This document shows positions 7,299-15,895 of a DNA stretch of 64,000 nucleotides, one piece after another. The notes beneath the pieces were generated by a model. It searched no databases, had not been told where the DNA came from, and saw only the letters and a program-made list of their open reading frames with translations. The DNA lies in the NCBI GenBank assembly GCA_019856515.1, contig CP082230.1, positions 1,178,001 through 1,242,000 on the forward strand, given 5' to 3'. Each line of letters opens with the position of its first letter. The first letter of the stretch is position 1. A program made the position numbers and the translations under genes. The stretch comes from Prolixibacteraceae bacterium. Lineage in GTDB: Bacteria > Bacteroidota > Bacteroidia > Bacteroidales > Prolixibacteraceae.

Positions 7299-8537
7299 TT
7301 AGTTACCCTCAATAATTCCTGGTGAAGGTGATGACGATTCAATAAAGTCAGTAGAAGAGTTATCTGAATCAATTAAATAAGGTCTCTCATTTGCAATAAA
7401 AGCCACTTTTCTTCGAATAGAATGGCCATATCGATTATTATCATCCATTGATAAACTAAAATATTTAATGTCTAACTGAGATGACAACGTTTTCCAATTA
7501 AACTGCCCTTTGGGGCTACACTCTACAGCATCAATAATCGAACTATTTTGAATTCGCCAAGCATCACGATTAATCTCAGATTTCACTCCATTCTCTGTAT
7601 AAGTATAGATATATGAATAAGCAGCCGCCTTCATAAACACATCCGTCGTTTCTGCTTTTCTTCTAAAAAGAATAAAAGATTTTTGTCCTTTATCATTTGG
7701 TGACCATTTCTCAACAGGAGTATCGGTCATTTTCTGCATATTTGGCACACCAGGAGTATCTTCATCAGTAGTACTAATATCATACCATTCAAAGTTTGCT
7801 TTAGTCAGGTCAAGGGAGTTCGAATTGATTGTCTTATGATTTATAGCTCTATCCACAATCAAAAATGACTCGCCTGGTTTCAGCAAAAATTGTTTTCCAT
7901 TTCCGCCAACACGGTAAACTTTAGAAACAGCAGTATACTTATCTCGTTCATCAACTTTAAGATCAGAAAGGACAATATCAGTTTGAAACTCCGTTTCTGC
8001 AATACATAGATCATCGGCATATAAATCACGTTCTGAATTATTATATATTTCGAAGAATTTATCCTCGGAATAAGCAGTACCATCAACATTTAACGATCCA
8101 GTAAAATATATTTCCGAGAAGATCAAGTCTGCATTAATATTGTATACATACAAATCTAAATCGAGAGTCAATCTTCCCCCTTCGACTTTAACATTTTGCT
8201 TCATTCCTCTCACTCCCACTTCTTTTACCACCTTACTTTTATCTAAATCAGCAGTAGTCACCTCTAATATTCCATCTAATTGCAGATTATATGTACCATC
8301 CTCAACTTTTAAGAATGGAACTCCTAAATTTTTGATTTTTCTAATCTTCTGAGATCCAGTTTCAACATTTGTAATCGTAACTGTTGCTGTTTTCATTTTC
8401 ACTTTATCATTCGAGAATGATTTAGGTGTATGCATTTTCACCTCTACATCTGAAAGAGGTAGCATCTGATCCTTTTGACAGGAAACAATAAGTAAAGAGG
8501 CCAAAAGTGCAATGCAAGATAGTTTCTTATACATCAT
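7299..8537 (-). CDS. DUF4876-like surface lipoprotein
   Basis: 412 residues. Lipoprotein signal MMYKKLSCIALLASLLIVSC with lipobox Cys at residue 20. Residues about 30-130 look like a beta-rich domain (KMKTATVTITNVETG ... TLDLDLYVYN). The stretch LIFSEIYFTGSLN ... KFFEIYNNSERDLYADDLCIAE resembles the lamin-tail-like module of DUF4876 proteins, which in Bacteroidota are often encoded beside TonB-dependent receptors. Here it is a single gene, flanked by the sulfatase cluster and the group II intron remnant, with its own terminator. No catalytic function is known for the family. DUF assignment is from memory of motif and architecture, moderate certainty. Confidence 0.65.
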   Translation of the reverse strand: MMYKKLSCIALLASLLIVSCQKDQMLPLSDVEVKMHTPKSFSNDKVKMKTATVTITNVETGSQKIRKIKNLGVPFLKVEDGTYNLQLDGILEVTTADLDKSKVVKEVGVRGMKQNVKVEGGRLTLDLDLYVYNINADLIFSEIYFTGSLNVDGTAYSEDKFFEIYNNSERDLYADDLCIAETEFQTDIVLSDLKVDERDKYTAVSKVYRVGGNGKQFLLKPGESFLIVDRAINHKTINSNSLDLTKANFEWYDISTTDEDTPGVPNMQKMTDTPVEKWSPNDKGQKSFILFRRKAETTDVFMKAAAYSYIYTYTENGVKSEINRDAWRIQNSSIIDAVECSPKGQFNWKTLSSQLDIKYFSLSMDDNNRYGHSIRRKVAFIANERPYLIDSDNSSTDFIESSSPSPGIIEGN

Positions 8538-8685: not shown

Positions 8686-9699
8686 ATCGGGTAGATGGCT
8701 GGAAGATATTTAATCTTCCAGTACACCTCCCACACCACCGTACGTACGGGTCTCGTATACGGCGACTCCCTAAATCACGACTTTACTTTCTGATAATAAT
8801 CACTTAGCGTAATATAGCCTGCCTTCTCCAAATTCTTATTCGTTATAGTCGTTTGTAGAATTGGACTCTTTGAAATGAAATGCGCCAATACTTTTTCCTC
8901 GTATTAGCATATTCATACGCTTTGCTCTTCAAAACTCCGATCAAATATGCCGCATGAAATAATGATAATTCGCCATCGGGTTAACACTTACCTTTTCGTA
9001 GTTCTGTTATTAAAACTTTTCGATGAAATCTGAGATAATCTTTTAAGGATTCCACCTGCATCTCATCAACTCCATGACTCCCTTTATTTCGATAAACCTG
9101 TAAATAAGCCTTATTTAGGTTATCTGATTCTAGGACTCGTTCTAATAAATTATCTGTTGTAATGGTCGTTTTCATAATGGCTTCAGTTATCCCATTGAAA
9201 GTGTGCGCTCTTGAGTTATTATCGAGTTCCGCTCTACCTTCACTCAAGTAGCTATCTTCCGATATTTTCTGCATTGATCCCTTCATTAGGTAACAGTCTG
9301 TATTATGAACAATTTAAGATTCAGTCCTTCCTGTAAAGTGGATACAGTACTATGACCTCGGCTGACTTCTCACAGTTAACTTTTTGTGAATGGACAGGAA
9401 AAAAAATACACTGTATCCATCTGTGAGACCTCCCATGGTAAGGAAATTAACTTTCACTCCATCTATCCGCCACATCTACGGTATAAACTCCGTGTAGAAT
9501 TCGGACTTCACTTTGTTTGGCAAGCTTATCCAGTTATATACCGCCTAATGAGATTCGTATACCTCGGATCAGAGTTTTGCATACGGCTTCCTTCAGGTTA
9601 TACCTCACGATAAGCACCCTTGCCTTCTGCTAGGTGGTTGGCTCTACAAACCTCCACTACGGACTTGCACCGATTAGTTAATTTACATGCATGGCACAC
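8686..9699 (-). mobile_element. Internally deleted group II intron, likely class C
   Basis: Read on the minus strand, the element begins GTGTG at 9699, followed within 40 nt by GGTGCAAGTCC and then the domain I-type stretch CTGAAGGAAGCCG. Just before the ORF comes AGAAGTCAGCCGAGGTCATA, a conserved pre-ORF sequence of bacterial group II introns. Behind the ORF lies a domain V-like hairpin (CCGTATACGAGACC / CGTACGTACGG, about 8720-8765), then a domain VI-like stem (CTGGAAGAT...ATCTTCCAG) and a plausible 3' end ...CCCGAT at 8686. The total of about 1.0 kb is far below the usual 1.9-2.5 kb because most of the RT gene is missing. It sits directly behind a transcription terminator, the known target type of class C introns. 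Class and exact ends are inferred. Confidence 0.8.
8775..9286 (-). pseudogene. ltrA: Group II intron reverse transcriptase/maturase, deleted and frameshifted
   Basis: The N-terminal part is open from 9286 to 8981 (101 codons) and includes NLLERVLESDNLNKAY and NKGSHGVDEM, the RT-0 region of group II intron proteins, ending LRKGKC-stop where the family continues with the RT domain. In the same frame just downstream comes the maturase C-terminal motif YEYANTRKKYWRI (near 8880-8920). After a one-base shift the reading continues as SPILQTTITN...LSDYYQKVKS with a stop at 8775. So roughly the first 100 and last 60 codons remain and the catalytic RT fingers/palm are gone. The protein cannot function; mobility would need a maturase in trans. 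Confidence 0.85.
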
Positions 9700-9700
9700 C

Positions 9701-9734
9701 AAAAGAAGGACTCCCCATTTAGGAGAGCCCTTCT
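9701..9734 (-). terminator. Intrinsic terminator of the C25 protease gene and intron target
   Basis: Arms 9704-9716 (AGAAGGACTCCCC) and 9722-9734 (GGAGAGCCCTTCT) pair over 13 bp including two G-U pairs, followed on the minus strand by TTTT (9701-9704) and then immediately by the intron 5' end at 9699. It lies 25 bp behind the protease stop codon. Confidence 0.85.
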
Positions 9735-9759
9735 CTATACTTTGACTCTAAAAAAGATC

Positions 9760-12700
9760 TTATTGTTTTTTCAAAATTTTAGCAAAAAGACCATTTGTGA
9801 GATCTCTTAGAACGTACATACCCTCTGACAAATGATCCATCGAGAAGGTCTCTGTTCCATTAACATCTAATTGTTTTACAACACGCCCATTCACATCCAA
9901 CAGTTCATAAGAGTGCTTCTTTTGATCATTGTTAATAATCGTTATCGTAGAACTAAAAGGATTTGGATATATTGAAGTAACTCCTAACTCTACAAGATTA
10001 GAAGATGTAAATAATTTAGCCGTTAACTTCAAATCATCTGTACTTTTTGAAGGTAATGAATGGCTGTTTCCAGCCAGTGAAACATAAAGCTTATTTTTAC
10101 CATCAGTGAAGTCAATATGCTGATAATCTAACAGTGGCTCCCATGCATCTCTAAGATTCTTACGAAACAGATAACTCACACCATCGCTTCCATTGATTGC
10201 CCCTTTTTCTTCAGCATACATAGTTAACTTGAGCTCTGGAGCTTCTCTTTGTGTCATACAAGTGACATCCACATTTGGGCTATTATAGTTCTTATATAAC
10301 TGAAGACTATTCATCTTTTCGCTACGCTTCCATAGATTATCATATTTAAATGCCCACAAATAATCATGCGCATTAAAGTCAAAGCCAGACAATTCAAATT
10401 GAATACTTACTCTCTTGCTTTTCAAATTATCAGAAGCTGTCATCCTCATTACATATGGTAAAGAATGATCTGTAATAATATTCGCATCAATGGCACTTGG
10501 CATCCTAAAATCTATCCAGCCTTTTTCATCGGTACCATCATTAATTCGATATATAAACTTCGTCTTTACAGCTTCTTTCTCCAATTGAACCTCAAAATAA
10601 GTGTAGTCTTCTACAGCAATATTTTTACGAATAGATGCATCTTCTCCTAATACAACAGATGCTGTATTCCATTGCGTTGTAGCATTCTCCCCCAAAATAA
10701 TCGATTGATTCGGTTTTAATGCCAAATTATGGTCATGCAAAGTCAATTGGTCGATAACTGTTAATGAGTGATTGACATTCAGCATTTCATCACCAAGATG
10801 ATCCAACCTAAAAATTGTCAATGATTTATCAATTGATTGCGACTTATCTCCTTTAAATGTAAAACTTGCATTTCTTGACACAATATCACCTTTACCCTCT
10901 ATATCTCCATAAATATTGACTTCTGAAGATGAAAGATCTAACGATGCACCAGTAGATATATTTATATTTTTACAAACCAAAGTACCTAACGTATTGCCGT
11001 GTCCATATGCCCTTACTTCTCCAGAAAGAATATTAAAATCGTCAGTGATCTTTAGCTTTTTTGTATTAAATCTAGAGTTTAATGATAGAATATCAGACCC
11101 AATATCTACCGTCAAAGATCTCATTGCTGTTATCACACCTTGACTACTTCTAACAAGATTATGAACAGAGCCACTTTCTACAAATACTACAGCTGACTTA
11201 AATCCATCTGTCCATGATTTATCAGATAAACCTAAGTCCCCTCGAACAGTCATTGTAACGTCCATCTTTGCATGGCTATTAACGATACTCGTAGAAAAGT
11301 AACCTTTCTTGAAAGAGATGTTACCTGCATTAAGTTTGAAACTTCCTTTTGCCCATTCACTAGAACTCGATTGTGCAAAAATATCTGTATCGAAATGTCC
11401 TCCATTTAGATTAAATACGGAACCATGTGCAGTAAATGTATTCTTAACCACACGGATATTCCCACCATCAATTGTTAAAGAACCATTTAACGCCATATTG
11501 CCATCAATTATCACATCAGCCCCATCAGCAATACCTAGGCTACTATTTTCCGAAATACTAATCGAATTGAAATGAGATGAAGTAGAAATAACTGGATAAT
11601 TTACACATCCATCATTTAACATTACTGCTGTAGAGGCATCAGGCACCATTTGGTCATCCCAATTGGATATATCCTCCCAACGACTAGATGTACCACCTCT
11701 CCATAATCCCTTAATCTTAATTGCAGGATCGATATTAATCGTGTAATCCTCAACATGAGCTTTATCAATTCCTTTATCAAAAGAGAAGTTATCATACGAT
11801 GAAAAATACGCAATTCGAATTAAAGTTGCTCCATAAACAGGTGGATTAATCTTCATATCAAAAGTCACAGTTCCTTCAGACCAATCAGCATTTTTAACAT
11901 CAATCTTCTCTTTACTTTGATCTAAATACCCATCATGATCAAGATCAATCCACACTCCAATTTTTCCAGAAACAACACCACCGACTCTTTTATAATCGAT
12001 ATTTAACTTATATGGATAATCAGGCTGAATATTTGCAGTCATATCTTTAAAATCATGATATCCAATATCAGATCTCACTTCACGATTATTCAAATCTGCA
12101 AGATGAACTAAACGAATCGCATTTATTGGTTCAACAATATTCAATGCAGCATAATTCCCCTCAGCAAGAGTAGTTACATGTAATGTATTAGATCCCACAT
12201 CCTCATAATCTATACGTGCACCATCATTTACATATCGATACAGTTTATAATTATATTTGGTATCAGCTTCTAGTCCTTTATGTTGAAACAGATACTTTGG
12301 GGATGGAATATAGGCACAATTATTTTCCTCTTTATCTCCATCTTTAGGATCTATAATCTCATCATCACCAGTGGTCCATTTAAGCAAATATCCCCAAATA
12401 GCATTTGACGCATCCTCAGGTTCAATATTAAGATCGATCCTATGGCTATAAAGATTTTTTTTCGATATAGAGATAGCTTCAAGTGCAGGTATTTCACCAT
12501 AAGTCCTCACTTTCTTTTGAATCCCATATGATATTCCTGCTTCATTAATAATATAAGCTCGATAATAGTAATTCGTATTTTCTTCTAATCCAGGTACCGT
12601 AATTTGGTAGGAATCTAAAGTGATAAGATCTGATGCTAATCTTATATCCTCGATTTTAGGATTCTCTGATTTAGAGACAACAACACCTTTCTCCAATACC

Positions 12701-15693
12701 TTATACATACCATCGGCAAGCTGTTCTCCTCCAATAGTAACCTCATTATTATCAACATTAATTGGATCTGATGTAACAACGGCTCCTAATCCAGGCATTG
12801 CAATAAATGCATAGTCCTCGACTTGACCTTTTTTGGGACTATAACAAGCATCTACAATACGATTTGATGCAGCATCAGTGATCACTCTAATACGTTTTCT
12901 TTCATATGTTCCAATATCTCTTGGTATATCGACGTAAAAACGAACGTCATCTTCAATATCAGAGAATTCATAACACATCTCATCATCTCCAAAATCATTG
13001 TCTCCATCAAAATCAAAATAAACTTTACCATTTTGACTATCCCCAGCAAGTGACAATTCGACCTCAGCTCTTTGTCCTGGTCTGACATGAATATTACCTT
13101 TACTTGTAAAGTCTTTGTAACCTTTATCACTATATGCTGTCTTAGATGAGATAGTAGTAGTTCCTAACTTAAAAGTTAAAATGCCATAATCTTCTCCCCA
13201 ACGAGCATTAGATGTAGCCCCACTACAATCGACAGGACTAATATCTTTATAAAGTACCACACCATCTTTAATAGTATTCTTGTTAGATCCATTTGCATTC
13301 GTCACATTTAATGATACTGTAAAATGACCTTGTTTAAGATATCTCACTTTTGGATCAGGTGATGCAGAAGTCGTTCCATCAATAAATTCAATTTCATCTG
13401 TACCAAAATTCCATTCCCATGCATTAGGTGAATAATCAGAACGATCTTTAAACGAAATAACATTACCACCTGTTTCAAATGAACAATTTGTTCCCCAAAC
13501 ATCAAACTTTGCCTTAGGTTGGGAATGACATCCTGAAATCTCATATTCCTTAGTTAAAGGTTTAATTTGATCTCCACTTAATGTTATCCGAACAGCTCCC
13601 AAGTCATCAACTTCACTGAAATTTAATGTTTCCGTCTCTTTTGAAACAATTTTCTTCGCAAGTACTTTATCCCCCTGAACCACTGTAATCAGTGCCCCCA
13701 TTTTAGAAATATCAGAAATGGTAACTTGCTGGTCACCACATGACATTGCATCTGGAAAAGTTGCATTTATTTCAGCTGGTTTAGCCTTCCATATTTTCAT
13801 TGAAGGATCACCAAATAGATGAAAAAGTCGATATGTATAAATTCGACTTTCTTCATCGGGTGCCCATGTTTCATCCATCCTCATTAAACCGAGGTTAACA
13901 ACATCTCCAAGAGTTGTTGTAGCATGATCAAAATTATGAGGGTGATGTCCATGAACTCCTGCTCCATTACCAAATGAAGGATTAAAGCCAGGATTAGGCC
14001 AGATAGACTCAAACATACCTAAGGTTAATCCATCATTACATCCAGAATAAGAGTAATAAGATGCAGCAATAACAGCAACAGCTCCTCCATTATTTTTTCT
14101 CAAAAACTTCTCAGCAAAACACTCTTTCAGTTCAAACTCACCTGTATGGCAGTTAATTGAGAACACGACTGGAAGCTTTTCGCCATTATTCAATCCATTA
14201 ATATCACTTGTTAGAAACTCCGGATGCGCCCAACCAGTTCCACCTGCATAACCATGATCACGATGAAGAACATAAAACTTTCCATCATTTATAGCAGCAC
14301 GAATATCTCCTTTTGAGCCATTCCAATTAAATCCATTAGCTCTTAACATCTCAGGAGGAAGTGCTTCTCCATTTGAATACCTTCCATTGTTAAAGTGAGT
14401 AGGTGATACAGAATGACTTGCATAATAGATACGTTGAACATCGTATCCTTGTCCTATCATATAAGATCTAACATCCTCACTCGTATGGCAAAAACGTCTT
14501 GTAGCATAACCATTCCTCTCATCATCTTGGAATTGAGCACAATTCAATCCATTTTGATAGAAATCTTCATCCTCAACAGGGTTTCGTTCGTAGTTAATAA
14601 TTTTATCAATAACCACTTTTGCTTCTGCCACACTTGATACAGATAAACGTCCCTTTGCAAGATCTGGTGTAAAATCACCAGCACCATCCATACACACATA
14701 GCTCAAATCTGAATAGAAATCTTCCCCTCGAGGTGTACTAAAACGTTTTGCAGGGACATCTTCATGATCACCAATAATCATTAAATACTTTGGCTTCACA
14801 TCCCATTGGTTATATCGAGTACTGACTACTGATTTTACTTCTTGAGTTGACCAACGATCTTTCGAAACAACTTCAACTGTTTGTCCCAAGCTTGCTTTCC
14901 AAGAAGCAAATCGTTTTGCCTCTTCTCTAAAACGCTCAGTCGTTATAATAATATACTCTTTCGCATCTCCATTAAAACTATTTGGAATATTCGCGATAGG
15001 TATTACATCAGCCCCGTTTATCGCCATATTCTTTAACTGAGAAGCAATCGCTGAACTCTCAAACAGTTCGACAAGATCATTATCTCGTTTTACTTTATAT
15101 GACAATGAAGAATAGACCCTCAAAATTTTTCTTTTGGGGTTATACTGAACTGGACATAAGTTTACTTTTAGAATACGAGCAGACCTCATCTGTTGATCTG
15201 CAACAACAGAAACAATCTTTTGAGGATAAAATGCATCTTTCGCATACACTTTATCATCTTTCGCAAATTCGGGTTCCGAAGCTCCTTCAGTATCTCTAGC
15301 TTGTTTTAAAGCAGGATAGATATCTATTCCTTCATACTCCGTATATGTAACATCGCTCAACTCAAGACGAACCTGTTCTCCTTGGGCTGCTAAAAAATAA
15401 TCGGATTTGACAGGCAATGCAGGTGCTCCTACTCCACCTAACATATTGAATCCTTCGATATGTAATAAACGGTAAGAATCTCCTAAAGCTTCATGACGAC
15501 TCATAAAAGCACCATCAAAGTTGTATTCAACAACAAACTGTTGTCCTTCTTTATGTGTCTTTAAACTGGGGGATGCGTTTTGCTCCACCAAAACTCCTTT
15601 TTTACGTTGCTTTACAAAGGGTAAATATTCATTCTTTGCATTAACAGATGTAAAAAATAGAGTAAGTAAAACTCCTAATAAAAATCTATGCAT
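9760..15693 (-). CDS. Giant gingipain-like C25 cysteine protease with T9SS tail
   Basis: 1977 residues with start at ATG 15693 (MHRFLLGVLLTLFF, signal peptide to about ...VNA). Residues about 20-235 form the C25 propeptide-like region; about 240-640 are the gingipain catalytic domain with VLHRDHG (catalytic His about 480) and FSINCHTGEF (Cys about 515), followed by CFAEKFLRK. Then come a PKD/Ig-like domain (WEWNFGTDEIEF), a GEVED domain (DFDGDNDFGDDE ... GQVEDYAF), Fn3-like segments, a second GEVED-like domain and a long beta-solenoid-like segment (GLWRGGTSSRWEDISNWDD onward). The end is a T9SS sorting domain (SIYPNPFSS ... LSEGMYVLR ... ILKKQ). Secreted and surface-attached endopeptidase is expected. 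Closely related in the first 650 residues to the protease at 43045-50478. Confidence 0.9.
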   Translation of the reverse strand: MHRFLLGVLLTLFFTSVNAKNEYLPFVKQRKKGVLVEQNASPSLKTHKEGQQFVVEYNFDGAFMSRHEALGDSYRLLHIEGFNMLGGVGAPALPVKSDYFLAAQGEQVRLELSDVTYTEYEGIDIYPALKQARDTEGASEPEFAKDDKVYAKDAFYPQKIVSVVADQQMRSARILKVNLCPVQYNPKRKILRVYSSLSYKVKRDNDLVELFESSAIASQLKNMAINGADVIPIANIPNSFNGDAKEYIIITTERFREEAKRFASWKASLGQTVEVVSKDRWSTQEVKSVVSTRYNQWDVKPKYLMIIGDHEDVPAKRFSTPRGEDFYSDLSYVCMDGAGDFTPDLAKGRLSVSSVAEAKVVIDKIINYERNPVEDEDFYQNGLNCAQFQDDERNGYATRRFCHTSEDVRSYMIGQGYDVQRIYYASHSVSPTHFNNGRYSNGEALPPEMLRANGFNWNGSKGDIRAAINDGKFYVLHRDHGYAGGTGWAHPEFLTSDINGLNNGEKLPVVFSINCHTGEFELKECFAEKFLRKNNGGAVAVIAASYYSYSGCNDGLTLGMFESIWPNPGFNPSFGNGAGVHGHHPHNFDHATTTLGDVVNLGLMRMDETWAPDEESRIYTYRLFHLFGDPSMKIWKAKPAEINATFPDAMSCGDQQVTISDISKMGALITVVQGDKVLAKKIVSKETETLNFSEVDDLGAVRITLSGDQIKPLTKEYEISGCHSQPKAKFDVWGTNCSFETGGNVISFKDRSDYSPNAWEWNFGTDEIEFIDGTTSASPDPKVRYLKQGHFTVSLNVTNANGSNKNTIKDGVVLYKDISPVDCSGATSNARWGEDYGILTFKLGTTTISSKTAYSDKGYKDFTSKGNIHVRPGQRAEVELSLAGDSQNGKVYFDFDGDNDFGDDEMCYEFSDIEDDVRFYVDIPRDIGTYERKRIRVITDAASNRIVDACYSPKKGQVEDYAFIAMPGLGAVVTSDPINVDNNEVTIGGEQLADGMYKVLEKGVVVSKSENPKIEDIRLASDLITLDSYQITVPGLEENTNYYYRAYIINEAGISYGIQKKVRTYGEIPALEAISISKKNLYSHRIDLNIEPEDASNAIWGYLLKWTTGDDEIIDPKDGDKEENNCAYIPSPKYLFQHKGLEADTKYNYKLYRYVNDGARIDYEDVGSNTLHVTTLAEGNYAALNIVEPINAIRLVHLADLNNREVRSDIGYHDFKDMTANIQPDYPYKLNIDYKRVGGVVSGKIGVWIDLDHDGYLDQSKEKIDVKNADWSEGTVTFDMKINPPVYGATLIRIAYFSSYDNFSFDKGIDKAHVEDYTINIDPAIKIKGLWRGGTSSRWEDISNWDDQMVPDASTAVMLNDGCVNYPVISTSSHFNSISISENSSLGIADGADVIIDGNMALNGSLTIDGGNIRVVKNTFTAHGSVFNLNGGHFDTDIFAQSSSSEWAKGSFKLNAGNISFKKGYFSTSIVNSHAKMDVTMTVRGDLGLSDKSWTDGFKSAVVFVESGSVHNLVRSSQGVITAMRSLTVDIGSDILSLNSRFNTKKLKITDDFNILSGEVRAYGHGNTLGTLVCKNINISTGASLDLSSSEVNIYGDIEGKGDIVSRNASFTFKGDKSQSIDKSLTIFRLDHLGDEMLNVNHSLTVIDQLTLHDHNLALKPNQSIILGENATTQWNTASVVLGEDASIRKNIAVEDYTYFEVQLEKEAVKTKFIYRINDGTDEKGWIDFRMPSAIDANIITDHSLPYVMRMTASDNLKSKRVSIQFELSGFDFNAHDYLWAFKYDNLWKRSEKMNSLQLYKNYNSPNVDVTCMTQREAPELKLTMYAEEKGAINGSDGVSYLFRKNLRDAWEPLLDYQHIDFTDGKNKLYVSLAGNSHSLPSKSTDDLKLTAKLFTSSNLVELGVTSIYPNPFSSTITIINNDQKKHSYELLDVNGRVVKQLDVNGTETFSMDHLSEGMYVLRDLTNGLFAKILKKQ

Positions 15694-15895
15694 GTTATAA
15701 TGTTTAATGATAACATGCAAATATTAACATAATTACCATGACTATTATAACAAACACACAGATTTTATAACATATTTAATCAAAAAACATTACTTAGCAT
15801 AGTAAAATAGCTCGAAATTAACAACAACCTATACTTATATTCAAAAAAAGCCAACACTATTTACTAGCAAATTTTGTCATCAGACTATTCAAAAG

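Follow-up and report, generated by a model that had tools for sequence, protein, structure and literature searches.

The group II intron behind the peptidase C25 gene of the window analysed here, a stretch of 64,000 nucleotides from a Prolixibacteraceae genome, has lost the centre of its reverse transcriptase (RT) gene and very probably represents a non-autonomous class C (IIC) intron that retrohomes with an RT supplied in trans by its full-length sisters. Within the genome, a single contig of 5,187,288 bases (5.19 Mb), the deleted form with the same filler at its deletion junction stands at 18 places (pattern search with the first 25 nt of the filler, at most two mismatches); 17 of these copies are complete and the 18th, L025_0, is split by a transposon. 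At least nine full-length copies of 1.89-1.98 kb accompany them (family search, best 40 of 65 candidates scored). That the window copy might be a lone relic is ruled out by the 16 further complete copies and the split one.

What remains of the intron in the window itself? On the minus strand it starts with GTGTG at 9699, directly past ...TTCTTTTG (9700), and ends in ...CTACCCGAT at 8686, giving a length of 1014 nt. Group II introns are marked by a GUGYG 5' end, an AY 3' end, a domain I core and domains V and VI, and the termini of the window copy, GTGTG...GAT, agree with such ends. Of the three Rfam covariance models that match (Table 1), RF02001 and RF01998 score above their gathering scores; the match to domains V and VI, at 37.9 bits, falls below the RF00029 gathering score of 40, as the RF00029 score does in 27 of 27 family copies. 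The 5' remnant of the RT gene is a 101-aa open reading frame stopped at an in-frame TAA of the filler, and a search of these 101 residues for an RT match found none; near the end of the gene, a 5-nt tandem duplication at 8882-8873 throws the frame off relative to the full-length sisters. An initial annotation, made from the letters of the window, had placed both intron ends, listed the ribozyme landmarks and described a natural ORF-less derivative whose RT gene lacks its centre and carries a late frameshift. The sister copies and uninterrupted sites bear out its coordinates to the base, the covariance models recover the landmarks, with domains V and VI slightly under the gathering score, and alignment to the full-length sisters makes both the deletion and the frameshift evident. 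Boundaries unlike those of any intact relative behind terminators were looked for; they match instead. Directly downstream of the intron, on the same strand, lies the gene of a DUF4876 protein (window 7299-8537).

Table 1. Intron features, target elements and neighbouring gene, in window positions
Feature	Position	Strand	Basis
RT-less (internally deleted) class C group II intron, GTGTG...CTACCCGAT	8686..9699	minus	Identical copies, uninterrupted sites, Rfam
Domain I core	9443..9614	minus	Rfam RF02001 (D1-D4-3), 123.3 bits, E 1.6e-26
Pre-ORF motif	9324..9385	minus	Rfam RF01998 (D1-D4-1), 48.8 bits, E 2e-7
Domains V and VI, CGC triad	8686..8767	minus	Rfam RF00029, 37.9 bits, E 1.6e-5
RT ORF 5' remnant (domain IV), to the deletion	8988..9286	minus	Alignment to full-length sisters
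Deletion junction: ~933 nt (~0.93 kb) of RT gene replaced by unrelated filler (~45 nt)	8941..8987	minus	
RT ORF 3' remnant	8776..8940	minus	Alignment to full-length sisters
EBS1, CAAA (intron nt 181-184)	9516..9519	minus	Analogy with IIC cryo-EM structure (PMC10190682) and IBS1 covariation
Putative delta C	9520	minus	Intron nt 180-184 reads C-CAAA
IBS1, TTTG	9700..9703	minus	4/4 Watson-Crick pairs with EBS1
IBS3, T (first base of 3' exon)	8685	minus	Base comparison across 27 copies
Terminator-like hairpin with T run, downstream of the peptidase C25 gene (insertion target)	9701..9735	minus	Stem score, pattern scan
Upstream peptidase C25 gene (context, not intron)	9760..15720	minus	Pfam PF01364 (Peptidase_C25), E 2.2e-61

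The deleted copies fall into two lineages. Lineage A comprises L001-L011 and L025_0, and six of its 11 complete copies, the window copy among them (six of all 17 complete deleted copies), are identical throughout their 1014 nt; lineage B comprises L012-L017, which differ among themselves by at most 22 substitutions. Identity between deleted copies and full-length sisters is 91-97% in the parts they share. Seven of the nine listed sisters retain an intact RT frame of 427 residues with a YADD motif, the frame being broken in L021 by a frameshift and in L023 by an insertion, and pairwise dN/dS among the intact frames ranges from 0 to 0.56 on few changes. For a representative sister RT (P0001 from L022), Pfam gives RVT_1 and GIIM only, and the best PDB relatives are 7uim and 6ar1, both group IIC RTs; no endonuclease domain is thus among the Pfam matches, in keeping with the C class. 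As the closest solved enzymes are those of IIC introns, the family belongs to class C, which agrees with the type named at first reading, and the genome search for a full-length homologue proposed there has yielded the nine or more sisters. The suggestion that the RNA could still move with a maturase from elsewhere likewise appears well founded, given 18 places sharing one deletion and seven intact RT frames.

The helper might instead be an unrelated RT, such as the divergent one at genome 840561-841211. The genome does hold a second group II RT gene, but the close identity of the deleted copies to their sisters in the shared parts, together with the seven sisters whose RT is intact, makes mobilisation by such an enzyme very unlikely. 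Both covariance models find at least 28 matches in the genome, the 27 family copies and one more each, at 359104 for RF02001 (best 80 of 206 candidates) and at 840076 for RF00029 (best 150 of 266 candidates), and Pfam counts 11 GIIM and 10 RVT_1 domains. The two additional loci, 359104-359909 and 840076-841211, are divergent group II introns or remnants outside the family; an open RT frame of 406 aa is present at the latter locus.

Terminators as the insertion target, also proposed in the initial annotation, are supported across the family. In the window, the stem of the hairpin scores 34 against a 99th percentile of 23 in the controls (959 stretches from upstream flanks); the terminator pattern scan found one pattern at this site, about equal to the mean of 0.8 in shuffled sequence. 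The upstream stem lies above the control 95th percentile at 23 of the 25 sites scored, a set that leaves out two downstream tandem copies, and L006 and L013 have no strong upstream stem. L013 (genome 4306668-4308700) sits in a tandem intergenic repeat of the ACACGGATCTGG...AAGTACCAC type, the adjacent unit of which is uninterrupted. The precision of insertion is apparent from 14 places elsewhere in the genome where the sequence runs uninterrupted through ...GGTTTTTTTG/YGTCTATAC (at most three mismatches; the slash marks the joint): L005 and L017 carry the intron at this very joint with neither duplication nor loss, so that insertion occurs without either and both intron ends are exact. A 5S rRNA gene immediately precedes L005, and L017 follows a 5S-like unit that adjoins an rRNA operon; Rfam scores one 5S gene per tandem 5S-like locus. 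These tandem 5S-like units (L005, L017 and genome 4075017-4075893) each have a terminator-like hairpin of their own, and two of them hold introns. Compared over 500 nt on either side, different sites are dissimilar save for the 5S-type pair L005/L017 and the two tandems; further flank matches, of 47 and 31 nt, are those of L009 and L014. At L030 (genome 2927384-2927442), a mere fragment of the intron, roughly its 5'-most 53 nt, follows another terminator-like hairpin.

Class C introns pair through a short EBS1-IBS1 and use a stem-loop in place of EBS2-IBS2; within the targets described here, the EBS1-IBS1 part of this scheme is recovered. In the solved IIC structure, a 4-nt EBS1 comes directly after delta C (PMC10190682), and when the corresponding loop of each of the 27 copies is set against the four bases that end its own site, Watson-Crick pairs form at 98 of 108 positions; shuffled sites give a mean of 73.8, and none of 20000 shuffles reaches 98. 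Counting the 11 distinct EBS1/IBS1 combinations once each leaves 34 of 44 pairs against 22.0 when shuffled, again with none of 20000 as high, these shuffles ignoring the relatedness of the copies. Loop and site change together: CAAA faces TTTG, TAAA faces TTTA (L015) and ACAA faces TTGT, with ATAA/GTAT (L026, three of four pairs) and AACA/TGTT (L027) as further pairs. Downstream tandem copies were scored on the site as reconstructed before the upstream intron arrived; their present neighbour, GATT, gives one pair of four. The fit is poor in L022 (two of four pairs and one G-U) and fails in L025_0, whose EBS1 ACGA stands at TTTG with one of four pairs and one G-U. IBS3 is T in 22 copies and C in 5. 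Intron nt 149 (window 9551) is T with CAAA or TAAA and G with EBS1s beginning in A, an association that all 27 copies show and that linkage, through descent or conversion, would be enough to explain.

The copies are also uniformly oriented. Plus-strand copies are confined to 3.30-4.78 and 0.21-0.29 Mb, minus-strand copies to 0.78-2.67 Mb, and GC skew, taken in 20 samples, is positive and negative in these two arcs, respectively, with one opposed sample at 1.82 Mb and weak values (<0.04) in several. Thus 27 of 27 copies, including all 18 deleted ones, agree with the sign of the skew, whereas about 61% of sampled ORF residues run with it (mechanical ORFs of at least 200 aa, all samples but those at 0.52 and 3.12 Mb, hence 18 of 20); p is 1.8e-6 if the copies are independent. 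The origin is placed here by skew alone, and dnaA (4.71 Mb) lies away from the skew switch. GC skew suggests that the sense strand of the intron falls on the template of the lagging strand, which bacterial class C introns are described as preferring (PMC8919778); introns without an endonuclease are said to prime at the replication fork (PMC4424553).

Could the 18 copies nevertheless be dead relics, spread by duplication of DNA or by gene conversion, with no RNA-based movement after the deletion? Judging by their sequences, intron copies exchange pieces. The full-length L021 (genome 3785360-3787261) has a B-type 5' part, the B-type frameshift and a CAAA loop, its 3' part is nearest to L029 and it includes a stretch like L022, and such mosaics show recombination among the introns. 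Only four bases, at nt 149 and within the EBS1 loop, separate L025_0 from the A type; these differences resemble a small conversion, and on their basis we read its misfit EBS1 as a probable later conversion. The transposon that splits this copy is an insert of about 1.58 kb (genome 3452984-3454563) with a DDE transposase and inverted matching ends. Conservation of the RNA core is likewise suggestive at most. Between L001 (A) and L012 (B), 5 of 408 core positions differ against 20 of 497 in the RT remnants (one-sided p = 0.008), a contrast computed without the filler and without the variable nt 258-314; once the latter are counted as core, it becomes 8/462 (p = 0.026). For L001 and L014, p is 0.048, or 0.22 with that stretch as core (11/462 versus 17/497), and within lineage B (L012 and L014) it is 0.06, or 0.38 (8/462 versus 11/497). 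As the contrast hinges on leaving out nt 258-314, selection on the ribozyme RNA is no more than suggested. However, copying of DNA would have to contend with flanks that differ and insertions that are exact to the base, with EBS1 types that match their own sites and with the orientation of all 27 copies along the predicted fork. An EBS1 that varies with the site, distinct flanks and uniform orientation together argue that the RT-less RNA has moved after the deletion, and we consider the dead-relic explanation very unlikely.

That the moving form is a single derivative is indicated by its filler. Since the filler is common to 18 of 18 deleted copies (at most two mismatches in 25 nt), the deletion most likely happened once. 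In our tree (26 rows, L025_0 left out), the A and B types are separate and a single clade of deleted copies is rejected (p-AU 0.027), as would be expected if the deletion had arisen several times in separate full-length copies. However, L021 is a mosaic of deleted and full-length pieces, and we therefore ascribe the rejection to recombination; moreover, the breakpoints in the A and B consensus sequences are identical and no other junction occurs among the 17 complete copies, so that repeated deletion is highly improbable. In the search for a donor of the filler, a genome-wide pattern match with its first 25 nt (at most three mismatches) led only to the 18 deleted introns, seven of the nine full-length copies gave no significant match, and a 40-nt pattern had no exact match in a collection of genome contigs that may omit the genome of the window itself. 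Domestication of the family as a host RNA controlling 3' ends or read-through would suit sites that adjoin terminator-like hairpins, with L005 behind 5S rRNA and L017 behind a 5S-like unit, but is hardly credible, given that class C introns are described as inserting after terminators anyway (PMC4424553, PMC8919778) and that identical young copies at unrelated sites resemble a selfish burst.

Retrohoming with the sisters' RT suggests the following scenario. In an ancestral full-length intron, a single internal deletion would have spared domains I-III, V and VI and the ends of domain IV. Read-through of the terminators would yield intron RNA, which would fold, be bound by the RT/maturase of the sisters through the retained ends of domain IV and the core, and splice out. 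The intron RNA would then reverse-splice immediately downstream of a further terminator hairpin, in single-stranded DNA, with EBS1 CAAA pairing at TTTG/T, and the sister RT would copy it, presumably with a strand of the fork as primer.

In the LINE/SINE pairs of animals, a short non-autonomous RNA depends for its copying on the RT of a long autonomous partner. The deleted introns most likely borrow the enzyme of their full-length sisters in much this way, but they are unrelated to SINEs in RNA and target, and they derive from their helper by deletion. At two loci, L024 (genome 4084561-4087479) and L025 (3452279-3456785), the two forms are stacked head to tail in the order terminator, deleted intron, one T, full-length intron; the upstream member of the L025 stack is L025_0, the copy split by the transposon. 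Both stacks are explained if the full-length copy came first, at TTTGT/, and the deleted copy later, at TTTG/T; the reverse order clashes with the EBS1 of the helper, which places the register of the deleted form one base upstream of that of the ACAA type. With EBS1 CAAA in place of ACAA, the cut would fall at TTTG/T and not at TTGT/, and a terminator occupied by the helper would still be open to entry. Helper sites ending in TTTTTTTGT number only three, the two stacks (as reconstructed) and L028. The IBS1 of the helper (TTGT) would be restored only after excision of the upstream intron, so that splicing of the helper would depend on its parasite. Conceivably, though we regard this as a tentative and rather doubtful extension, the deleted intron is a SINE-like hyperparasite that wedges itself between the terminator and a helper already installed there.

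How widespread is the deleted form? It was recognised in none of 139 other genomes when the best three candidates per genome were scored, hence a weak negative, nor in G041, G074 and G076 when all candidates were scored; G076 is a draft of 77% completeness, and two of the three matches there lie at a contig end or close to one, which makes its negative weak as well. G041, from the same bacterial family, has nine five-prime and eight three-prime matches, corresponding to about nine full-length relatives, and each of the three loci examined holds a 479-aa frame with YADD. In G074, a short remnant lies at 1595124-1595642, with matches that skip the domain I core.

Among known systems, the family resembles TeI3 of Thermosynechococcus elongatus (Mohr et al. 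2010, PMC2882425), in which, as described there, one early deletion of the ORF gave rise to ORF-less copies that outnumber the ORF-bearing ones, divergence of EBS opens new targets and composite introns form. TeI3 is, however, a group IIB intron forming nested twintrons, whereas the present family is of class C, sits at terminators, uses a 4-nt EBS1 and forms head-to-tail stacks; and action of the helper RT in trans was shown by experiment for TeI3 (PMC2882425) and is proposed from sequence here. With the E. rectale IIC retroelement (PMC10190682, 7uim) and the GsI-IIC RT (6ar1), it has in common the RT family and the stem-loop target, and, as in the IIC introns of PMC10190682, a 4-nt EBS1 preceded by delta C and an IBS3 T; both of those introns encode their own RT, which the window copy does not. 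C.te.I1 of Clostridium tetani is likewise an ORF-less bacterial group II intron, but its genome is described as lacking a related RT gene (PMC4424553), whereas this one has seven intact RT frames. ORF-less bacterial introns are called rare in one review (PMC4424553) and increased in certain genomes in one survey (PMC8919778). In the literature, as far as it was covered, we met no class C ORF-less family multiplying behind terminators, and an earlier description in connection with GsI-IIC is possible (PMC6082379). Relative to TeI3, what is apparently new is the combination of class C, terminator targeting, a register shifted by one base and head-to-tail stacks with the helper.

With 18 RT-less and nine RT-bearing copies of one recent family in one genome, together with uninterrupted sites, several EBS1/target pairs and intact helper frames, the organism offers a matched natural experiment. 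It would make mobilisation of class C introns in trans, and the evolution of new sites by a 4-nt recognition loop, directly testable, and likewise whether the long form loses out to the short one, and whether true LINE/SINE-like pairs exist in bacteria.
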